5,838 nt of DNA from Acidobacteriota bacterium. Lineage in GTDB: Bacteria; Acidobacteriota; Terriglobia; Terriglobales; Acidobacteriaceae. Location of the stretch: positions 1 to 5,838 of the forward strand of contig JAJXYW010000229.1 of assembly GCA_021780415.1 (NCBI GenBank), read 5' to 3'. The first letter of the stretch is position 1; every line of letters begins with the position of its first letter. This document shows, piece by piece, positions 1 through 5,838 of the stretch. Made by a program: the position numbers and the translations under genes. The notes below the pieces were generated by a model. It was given only the letters and a program-made list of their open reading frames with translations, was not told the DNA's origin and searched no databases.

Positions 1-1
1 C

Positions 2-358
2 TCCTCCGGTGACCGACGAGCCCTTGCCGGGGAGCGACGACCCCCTTCCGCTGATCGACAGGGTTCCTCCGGTGACCGACAAGCCTTGTCCGGAGAACGA
101 CCGACCCTCTCCGGAGACGGACGAACCTTCTCCGATGACCGACGAAGGCCTTCCGCTGAGCGACCAACCTCTTCCGGGAGCCGCCAAGGCCCCTCCGATG
201 GCCGACGAACCTTTGCCGGAAGCCGACAAGCCTCGACCGGGGAGCGACAGGCCTCCTCCGGTGAGCGACTGGCCTTTGCCGATGGCGGACAGACCTTCGT
301 TCGTAAGCGACAGAGGCCCATTCGGACGCGCCTGACCCTTGCCGGGGAGCACCCGAAC
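2..358. repeat. Diverged 21-bp tandem repeat array, about 17 units
   Basis: Units start every 21 bases from base 2 (2, 23, 44, 65 and so on); the last clear one begins at 338, and the array continues past the left edge. A typical unit, read in codons from base 2, is x-tcc-ggt-gac-cga-caa-gcc. Copies differ at many places, but no insertion or deletion is seen over the whole run. Read on + from base 2, the units encode heptads such as SSGDRQA, LSGERPT and STGERQA, and this frame stays open to the stop at 689-691. The facing minus frame is also open and gives Ser/Gly-rich heptads. In the + frame starting at base 2, much of the variation falls at third positions of codons 3 and 4 (ggt/gga/ggg, gac/gag/gaa), which mildly favours past or present coding. 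The sixth codon varies mainly at its second base, which does not fit. The array is certain; whether it is translated is unresolved. Confidence 0.9.
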
Positions 359-770
359 CCCGTCGCGGCCCCCCCGGCTGAGCCGAGGGACCGCCACACG
401 CCCGCCGGAGACCGCCCGATTGTGTCCAATGATCGCCGCAGGCGCAGCGAGAACCGCCGGCCGGGCCTCCGCACCCACCCCCGCCAAGGGCGCCCTCCAG
501 CCGAACCTGGCCGCGTCCCCGCCGGCGCCGCCGCGCCCGCACCCTCCGTCCGCCTGTCTTCCGGAACCCCCCCGGACCATCCCCACTTCCCCTTGCAATC
601 CCCCGCCCCGGTCGGTGCGGGCCCCAGCCGCCGCGCCATCCCGCCAGCGCGGCCGTCCGTCCCCATTAGCCCCTACCTTCCGGTCCGATGAAATGCGTGC
701 CCAGATGCCGCTCTGCCGGGGTATGCGCTTTCTGTAGCACAGGAGAAGGCCGCCGCGCAAGGGGGCGCGC
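359..770. other. C-rich stretch without a supportable gene
   Basis: The plus strand is strongly C-rich (one line, 601-660, counts 52 G or C of 60). Open frames exist on both strands but give only Pro/Arg/Ala-rich low-complexity peptides, as expected from the composition. The frame running through the 21-bp array continues here to 691 as a Pro/Arg-rich tail. No RNA gene, clear terminator or mobile element was recognised. Confidence 0.6.
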
Positions 771-798
771 TTGCCACCGGCCTGACAGCGCGTATACT
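771..798 (+). promoter_or_regulatory. Probable sigma-70-type promoter of the disrupted RM gene
   Basis: TTGCCA at 771-776 matches the -35 consensus at five of six bases. TATACT at 793-798 matches the -10 consensus at five of six. The spacer is 16 bases. Transcription would begin near 805, just ahead of the GTG at 816, so the leader would be only about ten bases and the G-rich run at 803-810 would lie at the extreme 5' end. In this GC-rich setting two such hexamers at near-ideal spacing stand out. The promoter most likely belonged to the type ISP-like gene and now lies upstream of the PstI-like gene. Confidence 0.6.
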
Positions 799-815
799 GC
801 CAGCAGGGGGACACC

Positions 816-1085
816 GTGAGCGACGTGCTGATCCAGCAATACCTCAACGAGTTGCAGGACCTGCGCAAGGTCTCGGGCACCTCGCGCGAGATGGTCGTCC
901 GCGAGGCCTTCAAGGACCTCCTCAAGGGCTGGGGCCGCTCCAAGGACCTGGTCTTCGTCCCCGAATACGAGATCGAGACCCCCGCCAAGCGCCGCCGGTA
1001 CGTCGACGGCGCGCTTTTGCAATGGCGGCATGAATGGGCACGATACGGCCACTTTCACAGAATGCCGAACGACGAAAGGCGGTAA
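816..1085 (+). pseudogene. Amino-terminal remnant of a type ISP-like restriction-modification gene
   Basis: The GTG start follows a G-rich possible ribosome site (803-810) and gives 89 residues. Residues 1-68 look like the start of the large single-chain RM/DNA methyltransferase proteins often called type ISP: an opening helix (YLNELQDLRKVSG), then SREMVVREAFKDLLKGWGR, then DLVFVPEYEIET and YVDGALL. In that family this is the beginning of a PD-(D/E)xK nuclease domain, in which the DG of YVDGALL precedes a G-Y-W-E-A-K segment. Here the resemblance stops at about residue 68 (base 1019), and 21 unrelated residues follow to the TAA at 1083-1085. The E-x-K part, the helicase, the methylase and the target-recognition regions are all missing; intact relatives have roughly a thousand residues or more. 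The fragment may still be translated, ending one base before the next gene's ATG and so possibly coupled to it. A matching carboxyl-terminal piece lies at 3634-3893. Confidence 0.8.
1077..1082 (+). promoter_or_regulatory. Ribosome binding site choosing the ATG at 1087
   Basis: AGGCGG lies four bases before the ATG at 1087 and overlaps the last codons of the upstream fragment. The alternative in-frame ATG at 1030 has no comparable site and would add 19 residues (opening MNGHDTATF) inside the fragment's foreign tail. The spacing is slightly short, so ribosomes finishing the upstream fragment at 1085 may re-start at 1087. Confidence 0.5.
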
Positions 1086-1086
1086 G

Positions 1087-3621
1087 ATGCGGCTCGGCGC
1101 CAGTCCTGACACATTCCCGGGGACTTATTCGGCATCCAGCTCCTTTCTGGACCGCGTGGACGCTCTCCGCACGGAGGCGGTCGCCAAGTTGGAGCCTGGA
1201 GCCCGCTCGGCGATGGGGCAGTTCATGACGCCGGCGCCGGTGGCCCGGTTCATGGCATCCCTCTTTCCGGAAGCCATGGGCGAAGAGGTTCGTCTTCTCG
1301 ATGCCGGAGCCGGGGTCGGTTCGCTCACGGCGGCTTTCGTGGAGGAGGTCTGCCGCCGGCCTGTCCGGCCGACCCGAATGAGTGTGAAGCTCTTCGAACG
1401 CGATGCCATCCTTTCCGAGTACCTCGCCGCGACTCTCGCGGCGTGCCACGAGGAGTGCGCCAAGGCCGGGATTCTGTTTGAGGCGGAGATCTCCAGGGAA
1501 GACTTCATTCGGGCTGCCACCGCGACGCTTCAGGGCGGCCTGTTTTACGAAAAGCCCCGCTTCTTCACCCACGCCATCCTGAACCCTCCCTACAAGAAGA
1601 TCTCCAGCGATTCCGACCATCGTAAGCTCCTGCGAACCATAGGAGTGGAGACGAGCAACCTGTATACGGCCTTTCTGGCCTTGGCCGTGAGACTGCTGGC
1701 GCAGGGTGGAGAGATGGTCTCGATCACGCCCAGGAGCTTCTGCAACGGACCCTATTTCAGGCCGTTTCGAGAGCTGCTTCTGTCGCAGACGAGCGTCAGA
1801 CACGTCCACGTTTTCGATGCGAGAGACAAGGCCTTCCAAGAAGACGAGGTCCTCCAGGAAAACGTGATCATGAGTTGCATAAAGGGCGGTGCGCCCCTGC
1901 CCGTCCTCATTTCCTCCAGCAACGACCAGACCTTCGATGGAATCACACAATGGGAGATCCGCCCCTCCGAACTAGTGCACCCCGAAGACCGAGACATGGT
2001 GATTCATCTCACCACGAGCGGGATGGACGTGAGCGTGCGGGAACGCGTGCGAAGTTTCGGGCACACGCTGAAAGACCTGGGGATCGAGGTGTCCACGGGC
2101 CCGGTGGTGGAATTTCGGCTGAGGGATTATCTCGGGAACAATCCGGGGCCTGGGGCCGTCCCGCTCATTTACCCATTTCACTTTCGGGGGCTGCGCGTGG
2201 AGTGGCCCAGGGCCGATGCCAAGAAACCCAACTACATCCAGGATCGCGGAGAGGCCACCCGGTGGCTCATGCCGAAGGGCCATTACGTGCTTGTTCGACG
2301 ATTCTCCTCCAAGGAAGAGCGGCGCCGCATCGTCGCGGCCCTGCTGACCCCCGACATCGTTCCCGGCGCCAGGGTCGGGTTGGAGAACCACGTGAACGTC
2401 TTCCATGCCGGGCAGCGAGGGCTGGCGCCCGAATTGGCCAGGGGATTGACGGTCTATTTGAACTCGACGCTCGTGGATGCCTATTTTCGCCAGTTCAGCG
2501 GGCACACGCAGGTCAATGCCGCCGACCTTCGAAACCTGCCCTATCCCGGCCGGGACGAGCTGGCCGATCTCGGGGAAGGCATGTCCAAGGAGGAAGAGCC
2601 GGGGCAGGATGCCATTGATGCCCTTGTGGAGAGGAGGCTTCAGCGCATGACGAAGATCAAGGATAAGGACCCCGTACGGGCCCAGAGAAAGATCGAAGAG
2701 GCACTCGCCATTCTGAAGCTCTTGGATTTTCCGCGCGCCCAACAGAATGTGCGGTCGGCGCTGACGCTTCTCGCGCTTCTCGACCTGAAGCCCGGCAGCC
2801 CCTGGTCCAAGTCCTCCGACCCACTCATCGGCATCACGCCCATCATGGATTTCGCCAGGAAGCACTACGGCAAGGAATACGCCCCGAATTCGCGAGAGAC
2901 CTTCCGCCGGTTCACCATGCATCAGTTCGTGCAGGCCGGCATGGCCGTCCCCAATCCCGACGAGCCCGAGCGGCCGACCAACAGCCCCAACTGGTGCTAT
3001 CAGATTGACCACAAGGCCCTGGAGCTCATCCGCACCTTCGGCAAGTCTTCGTGGGATGCCGAGCTGAAGAGGTACCTCGGGATGCGCGGCTCCCTGAGCC
3101 GGCGCTACGGCCGCGATCGCGACATGCGAAAGGTGCCCGTCAGCATCTCCGAAAGCACCGTCATCGCTCTCACGCCTGGAAAGCACAGCAAGCTCATCAA
3201 GGCCATCCTCGATGACTTCGCGCCGAGATTCTCCCCCGGCGCCACGGTGGTATACGTCGGCGACACGGGGAAAAAGTGGGGCTATTTCAATGAGCCGCTC
3301 CTTCGGGAGCTTGGAGTGAGAGTGGAGACGCACGGCAAGATGCCGGATGCGGTGCTGTATTACTCCGAGGAGAACTGGCTCCTTCTCGTGGAAGCGGTCA
3401 CGAGCCACGGTCCGGTCGACCCCAAGCGCCGCATGGAGCTCCAGCGGCTTTTCCAGGGGGCCAAAGCGGGCCTCGTCTTCGTCACCGCATTTCCGACCCG
3501 CAAGGAGATGTCCCGCTACCTGGGTGAGATCTCCTGGGAGACCGAAGTATGGGTCGCCGAAGCCCCGAGCCACCTCATTCACTTCAACGGCGAGCGCTTC
3601 CTGGGCCCCCATGAGGAGTAG
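1087..3621 (+). CDS. Fused PstI/BsuBI-type RM protein: N6-adenine methyltransferase plus restriction endonuclease
   Basis: This 844-residue cytoplasmic protein appears to carry both halves of a type II RM system. Residues 1 to about 520 are an Eco57I-class adenine methyltransferase like M.PstI/M.BsuBI: MGQFMTP at 43-49, the S-adenosylmethionine motif D72-A-G-A-G-V-G, and the catalytic NPPY at 166-169. The stretch NSTLVDAYFRQFSG with QVNAADLRNLPYP resembles the target-recognition end of such methylases, and DAIDALVERRL looks like their usual carboxyl end. Residues from about 521 match the BsuBI/PstI endonuclease family along their length: RKIEEALAIL, AQQNVRSALTLLALLDLKPGSPW, GITPIMDFARKHYGKEYAPNSRETFRR, VYVGDTGKKWGYF (D726), HGKMPD (D754), LLLVEAVTSHGPVDPKRR (E769), and the typical ending WETEVWVAEAPSHLIHFNGERFLGP. 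D754 and E769 are likely nuclease active-site residues (inference). PstI and BsuBI cut CTGCAG, so the same or a related target is plausible but unproven. In those systems the two enzymes are separate proteins of about 500 and 320-330 residues; here they are in frame. No stop or missing motif was seen, so the gene looks functional. The ATG at 1087 was chosen for its ribosome site. Confidence 0.93.
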   Translation: MRLGASPDTFPGTYSASSSFLDRVDALRTEAVAKLEPGARSAMGQFMTPAPVARFMASLFPEAMGEEVRLLDAGAGVGSLTAAFVEEVCRRPVRPTRMSVKLFERDAILSEYLAATLAACHEECAKAGILFEAEISREDFIRAATATLQGGLFYEKPRFFTHAILNPPYKKISSDSDHRKLLRTIGVETSNLYTAFLALAVRLLAQGGEMVSITPRSFCNGPYFRPFRELLLSQTSVRHVHVFDARDKAFQEDEVLQENVIMSCIKGGAPLPVLISSSNDQTFDGITQWEIRPSELVHPEDRDMVIHLTTSGMDVSVRERVRSFGHTLKDLGIEVSTGPVVEFRLRDYLGNNPGPGAVPLIYPFHFRGLRVEWPRADAKKPNYIQDRGEATRWLMPKGHYVLVRRFSSKEERRRIVAALLTPDIVPGARVGLENHVNVFHAGQRGLAPELARGLTVYLNSTLVDAYFRQFSGHTQVNAADLRNLPYPGRDELADLGEGMSKEEEPGQDAIDALVERRLQRMTKIKDKDPVRAQRKIEEALAILKLLDFPRAQQNVRSALTLLALLDLKPGSPWSKSSDPLIGITPIMDFARKHYGKEYAPNSRETFRRFTMHQFVQAGMAVPNPDEPERPTNSPNWCYQIDHKALELIRTFGKSSWDAELKRYLGMRGSLSRRYGRDRDMRKVPVSISESTVIALTPGKHSKLIKAILDDFAPRFSPGATVVYVGDTGKKWGYFNEPLLRELGVRVETHGKMPDAVLYYSEENWLLLVEAVTSHGPVDPKRRMELQRLFQGAKAGLVFVTAFPTRKEMSRYLGEISWETEVWVAEAPSHLIHFNGERFLGPHEE
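2632..2637 (+). promoter_or_regulatory. Internal Shine-Dalgarno at the methylase-nuclease junction
   Basis: A perfect AGGAGG lies nine bases before an in-frame ATG at 2647-2649 (residue 521 of the fusion). Initiation there would give a 324-residue protein opening MTKIKDKDPVRAQRKIEEAL, close in length to a free PstI-family endonuclease (about 320-330 residues). The site falls where methylase-like sequence ends (DAIDALVERRLQR) and nuclease-like sequence starts. It may be a working internal start or the relic of the once separate nuclease gene. Gly/Glu/Arg codons can produce AGGAGG by chance; its placement is what makes it notable. Confidence 0.5.
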
Positions 3622-3633
3622 GCGGGCGGCAGC

Positions 3634-3893
3634 ATGAAAGTCGACACCGAGACCACCCTCGCCGGCGTCCCCCCAAAGCCTGGCTATACAAGCTCGGCAA
3701 CCGCTGCGCCCTGGAGTGGATTCTCGACCAATACAAAGAGAAGAAGCCCAAAGACCCCACCATCCGCGAGAAGTTCAACACCTACCGCTTCGCCGACCAT
3801 AAAGAGAAGGTCATCGACCTCCTCATGCGCGTCACCACCGTCAGCATCAAGACCGTCACCATCACCGAAGCCATGAAGAGGGCGGTACGCTAA
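3634..3893 (+). pseudogene. Frameshifted carboxyl-terminal remnant of a type ISP-like restriction-modification gene
   Basis: From 3634 the first frame reads MKVDTETTLAGVPPK. One frame over, from 3681, it continues W-LYKLGNRCALEWILDQY, then KEKKPKDPTIREKFNTYRF, ADHKEKVIDLLMRVTTVS and IKTVTITEAMKRAVR, ending at TAA 3891-3893. The YKLGNRsALEWilDQY block, followed by an Asn-Thr-Tyr-Arg-Phe segment and a VIDLL-RV-TVS-T helix, is the typical end of type ISP-like RM/DNA methyltransferase proteins. The two frames join if one base is restored between the C6 run at 3669-3674 and the AAAGCC at 3675-3680. The remnant begins only 12 bases after the stop of the PstI-like gene and has the same orientation as the amino-terminal remnant at 816-1085. 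No start with a good ribosome site was seen for a stand-alone protein. The frameshift could be a sequencing error, but the missing centre makes it a remnant either way. Confidence 0.82.
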
Positions 3894-3960
3894 GGCAAGG
3901 AAAAAGGGCACTGTGTGTTGCGGCCCGAAGGGGGAACAGGAGCAAAGACGCACACAAGAG

Positions 3961-3970
3961 AGGGAGGGAG
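3961..3970 (+). promoter_or_regulatory. Purine-rich ribosome binding site of the HEPN-like gene
   Basis: The run AGGGAGGGAG contains GGGAGG at 3962-3967, six bases before the ATG at 3974, which supports that start. The 80 bases between the upstream remnant's stop (3893) and this ATG are purine-rich. I found no promoter there that I would defend, so the gene may be transcribed from upstream or from a promoter I cannot recognise. Confidence 0.6.
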
Positions 3971-3973
3971 AGG

Positions 3974-5125
3974 ATGCCCGCAACGGTCACGGTCTGCTTT
4001 TTCCCCTGGCTTTCGATATCCGAGCCCGTCAGCTTCAACGGATTTCGCCTCATCCCCTATCCTGAGGGCGAAGGACAGCCGTTTAGCGATGAAGAAAAAT
4101 CGGCGATCGAATGGGCGACGCAAGCGTTCCAATGCGGTTCTGTGGCGCCAAAGGTCCGGCGAGCGACTCTGCTGGCGCTTAGTGGAAAGGGACCGCTCGA
4201 GGTTCCGAGTGGCAAGCAGCGTTCCAATTGTTTTGCCTTCGCTGAACTTCTAGCCTTCAGCGCCTTAGCGGACCGGATGTTCTTCTTCCCTCTGGGCTAT
4301 TTCAACAAAAGCGCCTTCCAGCTGGTCATTCAAGAAGTGAAATGCCCACCTTCCGGTCAAGGCTGCACCTACCTCGTCCGACGACGAGACGGCTTCAAAG
4401 ACGCCTTGGATTTTCGTCGGCTTTGGATCAAACCTCCTCATGTTGAATCGCCTCTTGCATTTCCGGGATCTTTTGACCGCGGGTTTCTGAATGCGATCCT
4501 GAGTGCAAACCAGACCCTCGCCCCAGAGGAATGGGAGGCCATCTGGGACACCATTTCGAGCTTCAATCTGGCTAATACTGACAGCCCCGATGTACCTGAG
4601 CACGTCCAAGTAGTCTTGCTCCTTGGCGCCATCCAACGCCTGCTCGGATGCAGGGATGCCGGCAAAGGAAAGCTGACGCAAACCTTTGAGAAGATTCTTC
4701 CAGTGGAGCAGGAGATTCCCGCGGCTGGCGTGAAGAGGCTTGTCCCCCTAATCGGGAAGGACGAGCAGGAGATGCCCTTGCGAAAGGTGTGGCTGCGCCA
4801 TTTCTACGAGGTGCGCGGTGACTTGGCGCATGGGAAAAGACGAAGCGTGAAGAAGAACGGCTGGAACATTTACGATCACCTGTTGCTGGCGACGTTTATC
4901 CTTCCCTCCCTTCTGAAGCTCAAGTTACAAGAATCTGGGCTTTATTCGCTCAGCAAGGACGACCTCATCAACTGCTATGCCTTTGAGCCCCTCGCAAGAG
5001 TCGAACACATGGTCAACCATGAACAGGAGGGCCAAGCGGTCGAGGATTATGAATTCCCCTGGAACGACATCATATCTGAGGTCCATTTCCGGCATGGCCT
5101 CACCGTCATTCAAGAGGATTTCTAA
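3974..5125 (+). CDS. Uncharacterised protein with a probable Apea-like HEPN domain
   Basis: A 383-residue soluble protein with no signal peptide or convincing membrane segment. It opens with a beta-rich block (VTVCFFPWLSISEPVSF, then GFRLIPY) of a kind I associate with large HEPN proteins. Residues about 160-230 (GFLNAILSAN, then WEAIWDTISSFNLAN, then EHVQVVLLLGAIQRLLGC at 209-226) fit the helical start of an Apea-like HEPN domain. Residues 280-287, VRGDLAHG, hold the diagnostic R-x4-H motif (R281, H286), the usual catalytic pair of HEPN ribonucleases. Another helix (HLLLATFILPSLLKLKL) follows, and then an acidic tail. HEPN proteins act as RNases in toxin-antitoxin, abortive-infection and CRISPR-linked defence, but the substrate here is unknown and no partner antitoxin or nucleotidyltransferase is visible in the window. 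Two hand-counted lines give 50-52% G+C, against about 65% in the neighbouring RM gene, so it probably has a separate origin. The open frame is very likely real; the HEPN call is moderately sure, a defence role is inferred. Confidence 0.85.
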   Translation: MPATVTVCFFPWLSISEPVSFNGFRLIPYPEGEGQPFSDEEKSAIEWATQAFQCGSVAPKVRRATLLALSGKGPLEVPSGKQRSNCFAFAELLAFSALADRMFFFPLGYFNKSAFQLVIQEVKCPPSGQGCTYLVRRRDGFKDALDFRRLWIKPPHVESPLAFPGSFDRGFLNAILSANQTLAPEEWEAIWDTISSFNLANTDSPDVPEHVQVVLLLGAIQRLLGCRDAGKGKLTQTFEKILPVEQEIPAAGVKRLVPLIGKDEQEMPLRKVWLRHFYEVRGDLAHGKRRSVKKNGWNIYDHLLLATFILPSLLKLKLQESGLYSLSKDDLINCYAFEPLARVEHMVNHEQEGQAVEDYEFPWNDIISEVHFRHGLTVIQEDF

Positions 5126-5337
5126 TTTGCGTTTGGCTCCGGCCAGTTGATCCCCCGGGCACTTAATCCAGTATGCAGGTTGCCATTTTGAGGCTCCGCT
5201 ACACTTGTGTCTCGTGCGCGATCTGACCAGAAATAAACCATCCGCGAACAAGCCAGCCAGCTCTTTGCGGGGAAGCGCTGCCTGCGGAAGATCTGTTCCG
5301 CTTAGGTTAGGTGCTCCAGGCAGCACTGGCGGCGACG

Positions 5338-5370
5338 GGCTGGATTCCCGCCCCCGGGTCAAGCCCGGGG
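5338..5370. repeat. REP-like unit with a perfect 7-bp hairpin
   Basis: GGCTGGATTCCCGCCCCC (5338-5355) is followed by an inverted repeat: CCCCGGG at 5352-5358, a TCAAG loop, and CCCGGGG at 5364-5370. The first 18 bases recur at 5566-5583 with two mismatches. Opening motifs of the GGATTCCCG kind followed by a GC-rich hairpin are typical of dispersed intergenic palindromes in GC-rich bacteria. No T-run follows, so it is not a standard terminator. Confidence 0.55.
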
Positions 5371-5447
5371 CATGCTTTGCGCGCGAAGGAGGGGCACGGG
5401 GCCGGGCTGTGGGCGGGAAGGACAGTTGCAGGACTCCCTTACGGCCC

Positions 5448-5467
5448 GACAGGCGCGGGCGCCTGTC
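5448..5467. repeat. Perfect 8-bp inverted repeat
   Basis: GACAGGCG (5448-5455) and CGCCTGTC (5460-5467) pair perfectly around a CGGG loop. A second, overlapping small inverted repeat (TCTCTC at 5466-5471 with GAGAGA at 5481-5486) lies just downstream. There is no T-run on either side. It could be a structured RNA element, a protein-binding palindrome or part of the local repeat cluster; the sequence does not decide. Confidence 0.5.
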
Positions 5468-5565
5468 TCTCCCGAAGCGTGAGAGAAGGCCTTCAAAGAA
5501 TCGCGATCGGGCGATCACTCCTACGACGGTGGGTTTCCCCCGAACACCGTGGAACTGGCATGTGC

Positions 5566-5613
5566 GGCTGGGTTCCCGCTCCCCGCTATGGCGGAGACAA
5601 GCTTCGCGGGGAG
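5566..5613. repeat. Second REP-like unit with an 8-bp stem
   Basis: GGCTGGGTTCCCGCTCCC (5566-5583) matches the unit at 5338-5355 at 16 of 18 bases. CTCCCCGC (5579-5586) can pair with GCGGGGAG (5606-5613) across a 19-base loop that contains its own small hairpin (CCGC-TATG-GCGG). The stem sequence differs from that of the first unit, so they are diverged members or only share the opening motif. Confidence 0.5.
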
Positions 5614-5838
5614 GACGGATCAGGAAGCAGGCCCTGGAGGGGAGAGGGCCGACGGCCTCGGGCCGGTGTTGGAGCGGGGGCCCAGGGACGCTTCCTGGTC
5701 CGCACGGCGCTGTGGCGCTGTTGAAGGGGCGTGCGGGGCGAGAAGCGGGCACTTGTGGAGAGTCGTGGGTGGGGGTAGGGTAGGGACAGGCAGGACTCCC
5801 GGGATGCGGCTGTTTCCGCCCCGGGGGCCGCGCGGGGT

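Follow-up and report, generated by a model that had tools for sequence, protein, structure and literature searches.

Can one restriction-modification (RM) gene take over the site of another, together with the signals that once expressed it? The question is raised by a 5,838-nucleotide stretch of DNA from an uncultured Acidobacteriota bacterium (GenBank assembly GCA_021780415.1, contig JAJXYW010000229.1, positions 1 to 5,838 of the forward strand), referred to here as the window, in which a complete RM gene lies between two pieces of what looks like an older one. How RM systems turn over fast despite their poor presence on mobile elements is presented as an open question in the excerpted text of PMC4176335. 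We propose that in the window a fused RM gene replaced the middle of the older gene and captured its promoter-like signals and 5' end, a reading to which we assign a probability of roughly three in four.

The features of the locus, all on the plus strand, are listed below. P0001 is an intact 1,030-amino-acid (aa) relative of the old gene from genome G009, and P0189 is an Acidobacteriota database protein, NCBI locus WBS54_00155, whose reading frame includes the same junction.

771 to 798, plus strand: promoter-like site (TTGCCA, 16 bases, TATACT), apparently the old gene's; the sole match on either strand in 600 to 4100
816 to 1021, plus strand: 5' remnant (head), about 68 codons, of a DrdV-like Type IIG RM gene; matches PDLC03621 positions 6-70 of 1024
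1022 to 1086, plus strand: linker; unmatched in G009 past 1021, its peptide diverged but recognizable in P0189
1087 to 3621, plus strand: complete fused RM gene (newcomer), 844 aa; PF07669, PF17728, PF06616
1294 to 1323, plus strand: LLDAGAGVGS within the fused gene, which we take to be the S-adenosylmethionine-binding motif
1582 to 1593, plus strand: NPPY within the fused gene, presumably the N6-adenine methylase catalytic motif
3340 to 3414, plus strand: MPD...VEAVTSHGP block, mostly common to SdaI; presumed nuclease active-site region
3627 to 3893, plus strand: 3' remnant (tail), about 88 codons, of the DrdV-like gene; matches PDLC03621 positions 941-1013 of 1024 and PF18135 positions 294-342 of 342
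3974 to 5125, plus strand: unrelated 383-aa open reading frame (ORF), 3' of the tail

The head and tail are the two ends of one old gene

The head and the tail matched opposite ends of a single PADLOC profile, PDLC03621, with E values of 6.9e-7 and 2.2e-19, respectively. In Pfam, the tail also matched the final 49 positions of Type_ISP_C (PF18135), and the head had no match above the cut-off. Compared with the G009 gene, the head showed 87% protein identity over 68 aa and 76.6% DNA identity over 205 bp, and the tail showed 85.4% DNA identity over 260 bp starting at window position 3627. Among 13 genomes of the class of G001, the metagenome-assembled genome (MAG) in which the locus was found a second time, the pieces corresponded to residues 1-70 and 957-1030 of P0001 at 84 and 85% identity. 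These alignments show the pieces to be two ends of one gene family, in order and in the same orientation, and not members of different families, the outcome that would have undone the initial annotation of this DNA.

Tail DNA homology begins at about residue 943 of P0001; therefore, about 875 codons are gone here, and this locus can no longer encode the old enzyme. The initial annotation had put the loss at about 900 codons and had argued for replacement rather than clean insertion; both points stand, the new gene filling the gap. Its short junction distances were also borne out: 65 to 67 bases separate the end of head homology from the new ATG, and 5 to 12 bases separate the new stop from the tail.

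The same annotation had called the pieces type ISP-like. They do belong to one protein, but the type does not hold. Residues 2-1024 of P0001 align end to end with PDB entry 7lo5 (1029 aa, 1070 bits), which we take to be DrdV. The Pfam content of P0001 is N6_Mtase, Eco57I, and Type_ISP_C; a Pfam scan gave no nuclease match, and the nuclease part is visible only through the 7lo5 alignment. P0001 carries nuclease, methylase, and recognition parts in a single chain of about 1,030 aa, and no helicase domain was found in it, whereas a Type ISP enzyme has a superfamily 2 helicase-like ATPase between nuclease and coupler. LlaGI aligns only from its residue 533 and LlaBIII only from its residue 699 (P0001 residues 134 and 136 onward). 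Because of the whole-length 7lo5 alignment and the lack of a helicase, the old gene is better named DrdV-like Type IIG than Type ISP. The type ISP name is the one used in NCBI annotation; the nearest relative on a plasmid, at 59.6% identity, carries the label "type ISP restriction/modification enzyme." According to the excerpted text of the PaqCI paper (PMC10201449), DrdV is a Type IIG enzyme with an N-terminal nuclease domain and a C-terminal recognition domain.

The newcomer is a complete PstI-type fusion gene

The nuclease domains of the newcomer matched PF06616 (E 6.8e-62, full profile) and PF17728, an N-terminal helix-turn-helix domain (E 3.7e-51), and the protein aligned with the SdaI nuclease (2ixs) across 316 residues (E 2e-74). 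Its methylase matched PF07669 (Eco57I), and PDLC03359 over residues 37-861 of the frame read from 1030. The start is most likely at 1087 and not at 1030 because the five closest database proteins (P0002 to P0006) are all 844 aa long. Judged by these domains, the newcomer is a complete PstI/BsuBI/SdaI-type fusion of N6-adenine methylase and endonuclease, as had been annotated, lying in the same orientation as the pieces around it. Cleavage and methylation of CTGCAG or CCTGCAGG, the mark of the BsuBI/PstI class, are predicted for it. CTGCAG, the expected target of a PstI-type enzyme, has zero sites in the window (1 to 5838).

Relatives of the newcomer occurred in 23 of the 396 genomes of the phylum of G001 (E 1e-50). 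Among 72,556 plasmid records, 174 had a match, 65 of them covering at least 80% of the query and all of them below 60% identity. No relative of the RM gene, of the old enzyme, or of the head could be confirmed on viral contigs.

The old 5' end leads into the new gene

The head begins with a GTG start codon at 816, and its reading frame extends past 1021 to a TAA at 1083 to 1085, giving an ORF of 89 aa. The stop lies one base upstream of the new gene's ATG (TAA-G-ATG), and the linker upstream of that ATG contains AAAGG, which by eye resembles a Shine-Dalgarno sequence. The promoter-like site ends 17 nucleotides upstream of the head start, and G009 has TATAAT at the same 17-nucleotide distance; the site was apparently inherited from the old gene. 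The linker was either brought in by the newcomer or formed at the junction.

We infer from this layout that the newcomer would be transcribed from the old promoter and that its translation would be coupled to the old 5' end. In the proposed mechanism, a PstI/SdaI-type fused RM gene took the place of about 875 central DrdV-like codons in the same direction and would now be transcribed as the second cistron from the old promoter, its translation coupled to a frame that stops one base before its ATG. The retained head would most simply be a translated leader that brings ribosomes to the RM gene.

The arrangement recurs outside the window. A second assembly (JAKAJA010000131.1, here L001, from MAG WY3.bin59, our G001) has the same structure over an overlap of 5,283 bases. 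There is one silent mismatch between the two in 1 to 4504, and there are 37 mismatches in 4505 to 5258. The drop in identity at 4505 marks either a recombination breakpoint or an assembly seam, L001 having a coverage of 1.3. The 89-aa ORF, junction included, is also found on other contigs as P0188 (99% identical) and P0189 (85%). Such recurrence might have pointed to a small gene in its own right, but the ORFs carry the junction linker and so belong to the derived locus, not to an ancestral small gene. The idea that the whole arrangement is a chimeric assembly or a chance juxtaposition starts from the metagenomic origin of the contigs and the low coverage of L001, but the repeat of the structure in JAKAJA010000131.1 and the recurrence of the junction ORF in P0188 and P0189 leave it next to no weight.

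The tail decays while the head looks constrained

Codon changes unique to each lineage were counted as silent or replacing. In the tail there were 3 silent and 5 replacing changes in the window, against 7 and 0 in G009 and 11 and 2 in G002, a genome with an orthologous head; in the head the counts were 4 and 1, 18 and 3, and 8 and 3, respectively. The tail also has a frameshift in a run of C at 3669 to 3674, with identical letters in L001. By these two signs, frameshift and relaxed codon changes, the tail is dead, a decaying pseudogene.

The head looks constrained. Between the window and P0189, 4 of 68 head residues had changed, compared with 9 of 21 in the linker (Fisher p 1.8e-4). In a second junction class, of 128 aa, three pairs that include P0191 differed at 1, 2, and 3 of 119 head residues versus 5 of 9 linker residues (p 2.8e-6 to 2.5e-5); these pairs amount to one contrast, which a linker insertion or deletion could produce. 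Having stayed open and little changed in protein, the head probably still matters. The initial annotation saw the locus as a snapshot of one system displacing another; displacement agrees with our analysis, but recency was overstated, the P0189 linker being already so changed.

Replacement appears to have happened more than once

In G002 two RM genes come after an orthologous head that spans residues 1-87 at 85% identity, one for a BglII-family nuclease (PF09195) and the other for an MT-A70 methylase (PF05063). A tail (residues 846-1030, 81%) begins a separate contig. The ends of the two contigs share 233 bp at 98% identity, and the other 31 of 33 such matches in the genome span at most 80 bases. 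We infer that the G002 head and tail are one locus of the same plan, split between the two contigs. The orthologous gene there would thus have undergone the same kind of replacement, apparently by an unrelated RM pair, which would bring the number of replacements of the old gene, each by a different RM system, to at least two. Among loci of the class at 80% identity or more, with G009 counted, two of three are replaced and one is intact.

On a contig of 3,571 bp whose ends bear short repeats (locus L050, contig C325), G001 carries another copy of the RM gene, 74% identical. The ORF preceding it starts with MSQLLIRPDLNNLK, and 9 of the 14 residues after M equal those of the G002 head; when 12,818 start sites in 16 loci were scored the same way, the four scoring at least 7 were all true family members, and the best unrelated site scored 6. 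This leader frame closes 4 bases upstream of the RM ATG. The window's linker has no similarity to the DNA that precedes the RM gene on C325 (p 0.64). In the database, the longest contig is 10,192 for both P0006 and P0191 and 4,656 for both P0004 and P0200, a match of entries which suggests that RM genes of this clade sit behind 128-aa heads. P0203 (136 aa) is 98% identical to the window's head over its first 60 residues and then continues differently; it may represent another allele from the same species clade.

Two broader generalizations were rejected. The first, that every such PstI-like RM gene travels with a DrdV head, failed at 36 other RM loci from 30 genomes, none of which had a recognizable head (at most 61% identical in any segment; flanks of about 1.5 kb at 28 loci, some at contig ends); one, L103, gave a weak 22% match, to the methylase part only. 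The second, that split genes are the rule, failed in 398 genomes of the phylum of G397, where none of six relatives at 55% identity or more was split into head and tail, in a scan that scored at most two candidates per genome at a limit of E 1e-6 and that short pieces could escape. One of the six lacks residues 1-90, and another has an in-frame TGA. Tail-only pieces were present in the ORF lists of G188, G080, G171, and G045.

Weighing the reading against its rivals

Several results weigh against the proposed capture. Intact genes exist in related genomes, as the initial annotation anticipated (P0001 in G009 and, at 54 to 55% identity, two copies in G010, of the class of G001), but none was seen at the same chromosomal place, the window's flanks matching 0 of 9 relatives' loci. 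The promoter-like site alone is near chance (one match in 600 to 4100, with 0.5 expected from shuffles; standard deviation, 0.7). The C325 leader is equivocal at the DNA level, with shuffles reaching its score in 16 of 200 trials against G002, 12 of 200 against the window, and 0 of 200 against G009. Two head-only remnants among the 396 genomes (G203:C22 and G258:C58) have no RM gene among their neighboring ORFs by PADLOC (three ORFs in G203, four in G258), and heads therefore also persist alone. As for constraint on the head, there is no linker excess between the window and P0188 (1 of 68 head and 0 of 21 linker residues) or in the other two pairs of the 128-aa class (2 and 1 of 119 versus 0 of 9), and the case comes down to one informative contrast per junction class, picked post hoc from few sequences.

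The conservation of the head fits selection, and it also fits refreshment by recombination with intact alleles. It is conceivable, if on the unlikely side, that RM-bearing and intact alleles circulate and that exchange through the shared head keeps it constrained-looking though unused. Homology with intact alleles stops at the junction, where an exchange tract must also stop; the RM proteins P0004 and P0006 are only 78% identical, yet the heads P0200 and P0191, apparently on the same contigs as they are, differ at just 3 of 119 residues; and the sharp fall in identity at 4505 would suit a recombination breakpoint. No intact allele was seen in the same species, however, and with the coverage of L001 the breakpoint could be a seam.

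Replacement in a single step is possible, as is a deletion followed later by insertion. In the latter order, which we rate as rather unlikely, the old gene was first reduced by internal deletion to a head-tail mini-gene, into which the RM system moved afterward. It is possible because head-tail fusions without an insert occur (P0194, P0208, P0213, P0235, P0238, P0271, P0305, and P0307), that of P0238 having its fusion point close to the window's breakpoints. Head sequences place none of these in the window's clade, however, and insertion with simultaneous deletion requires just one event. In P0208, P0235, P0271, P0305, and P0307 (134 to 136 aa) the DrdV-like head and tail are joined at one point (KF.RGY, then R.ADYK), the result of either recurrent deletion or a conserved mini-gene.

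It is improbable that the head was kept as a working small protein that, for example, joins or blocks related nucleases. Changes do concentrate outside the head in both the 89-aa and the 128-aa forms, but the 89-aa form stops before the GYWEAKD block, presumably the ExK half of the nuclease site. An AlphaFold2 model of P0188, one residue off the window's ORF, has just two helices at a predicted local distance difference test score of 54, which counts weakly against a well-folded small protein. Many small head proteins are expected from any broken long gene, gene callers retaining 5' ends, and we rejected the 251 in the database (120 of them examined) as proof of function for the same reason.

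Flanking sequences

The 383-aa ORF downstream of the tail has 66 database relatives and no match at E 0.1 in Pfam, PADLOC, or NCBIfam. R281 and H286, in an RGxxAHG motif that to us resembles the HEPN RNase motif, are invariant across 41 aligned sequences. Its AlphaFold2 model is confident (predicted template modeling score, 0.88) and had no match in the PDB at E 0.001 (best, 0.6). The ORF is present in one of 149 relatives of G001, namely, G001 itself, and 17 of the 30 codons changed between the window and L001 are replacing. Upstream of the locus, 2 to 275 contains degenerate tandem arrays of 21-bp and 63-bp units.

Implications and comparison with known systems

If the capture took place as proposed, a defense gene may be able to acquire both the site and the switch of another: a newcomer behind an older RM gene's promoter and start could be expressed immediately, and its arrival would remove the old system from that place. 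Should the old 5' end be under selection, a remnant that annotation would discard now serves expression of the new system, and remnants of this sort could flag defense turnover in other genomes. We are doubtful of the stronger proposal that the DrdV-like 5' end is a reusable docking site for RM genes, where promoter, start, and constrained leader are kept, the enzyme is swapped, and the leader peptide itself is selected.

Like the PstI, BsuBI, and SdaI systems, the newcomer has both nuclease domains and an Eco57I-type methylase; unlike them, it is fused in one 844-aa chain, the best 25 of the 174 plasmid records having two annotated genes. The old gene resembles DrdV in that P0001 aligns over its full length, but all that the window retains is about 68 codons from the N-terminal end and 88 from the C-terminal end. 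P0001 shares its coupler, methylase, and target-recognition parts with LlaGI and LlaBIII, which are Type ISP enzymes in the excerpted text of PMC4666363, but is without their helicase.

A literature search, in which subscription papers were mostly outside coverage, returned no report of one gene as a recurrent acceptor, nor of an RM system preceded by a constrained 5' remnant of DrdV type. Replacement of one RM system by another is already known; what is new here is its apparent recurrence and the retained, seemingly constrained head. In Campylobacter cuniculorum, as described in the excerpted text of PMC4615327, a PabI-family system replaced a type II restriction (R) gene. As here, a type II RM system displaced another's gene and disrupted its neighbors. 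There, however, the R gene was replaced and the modification gene broken, whereas in the window a single large gene is missing its middle, and the newcomer lies behind that gene's promoter-like site and 5' end.

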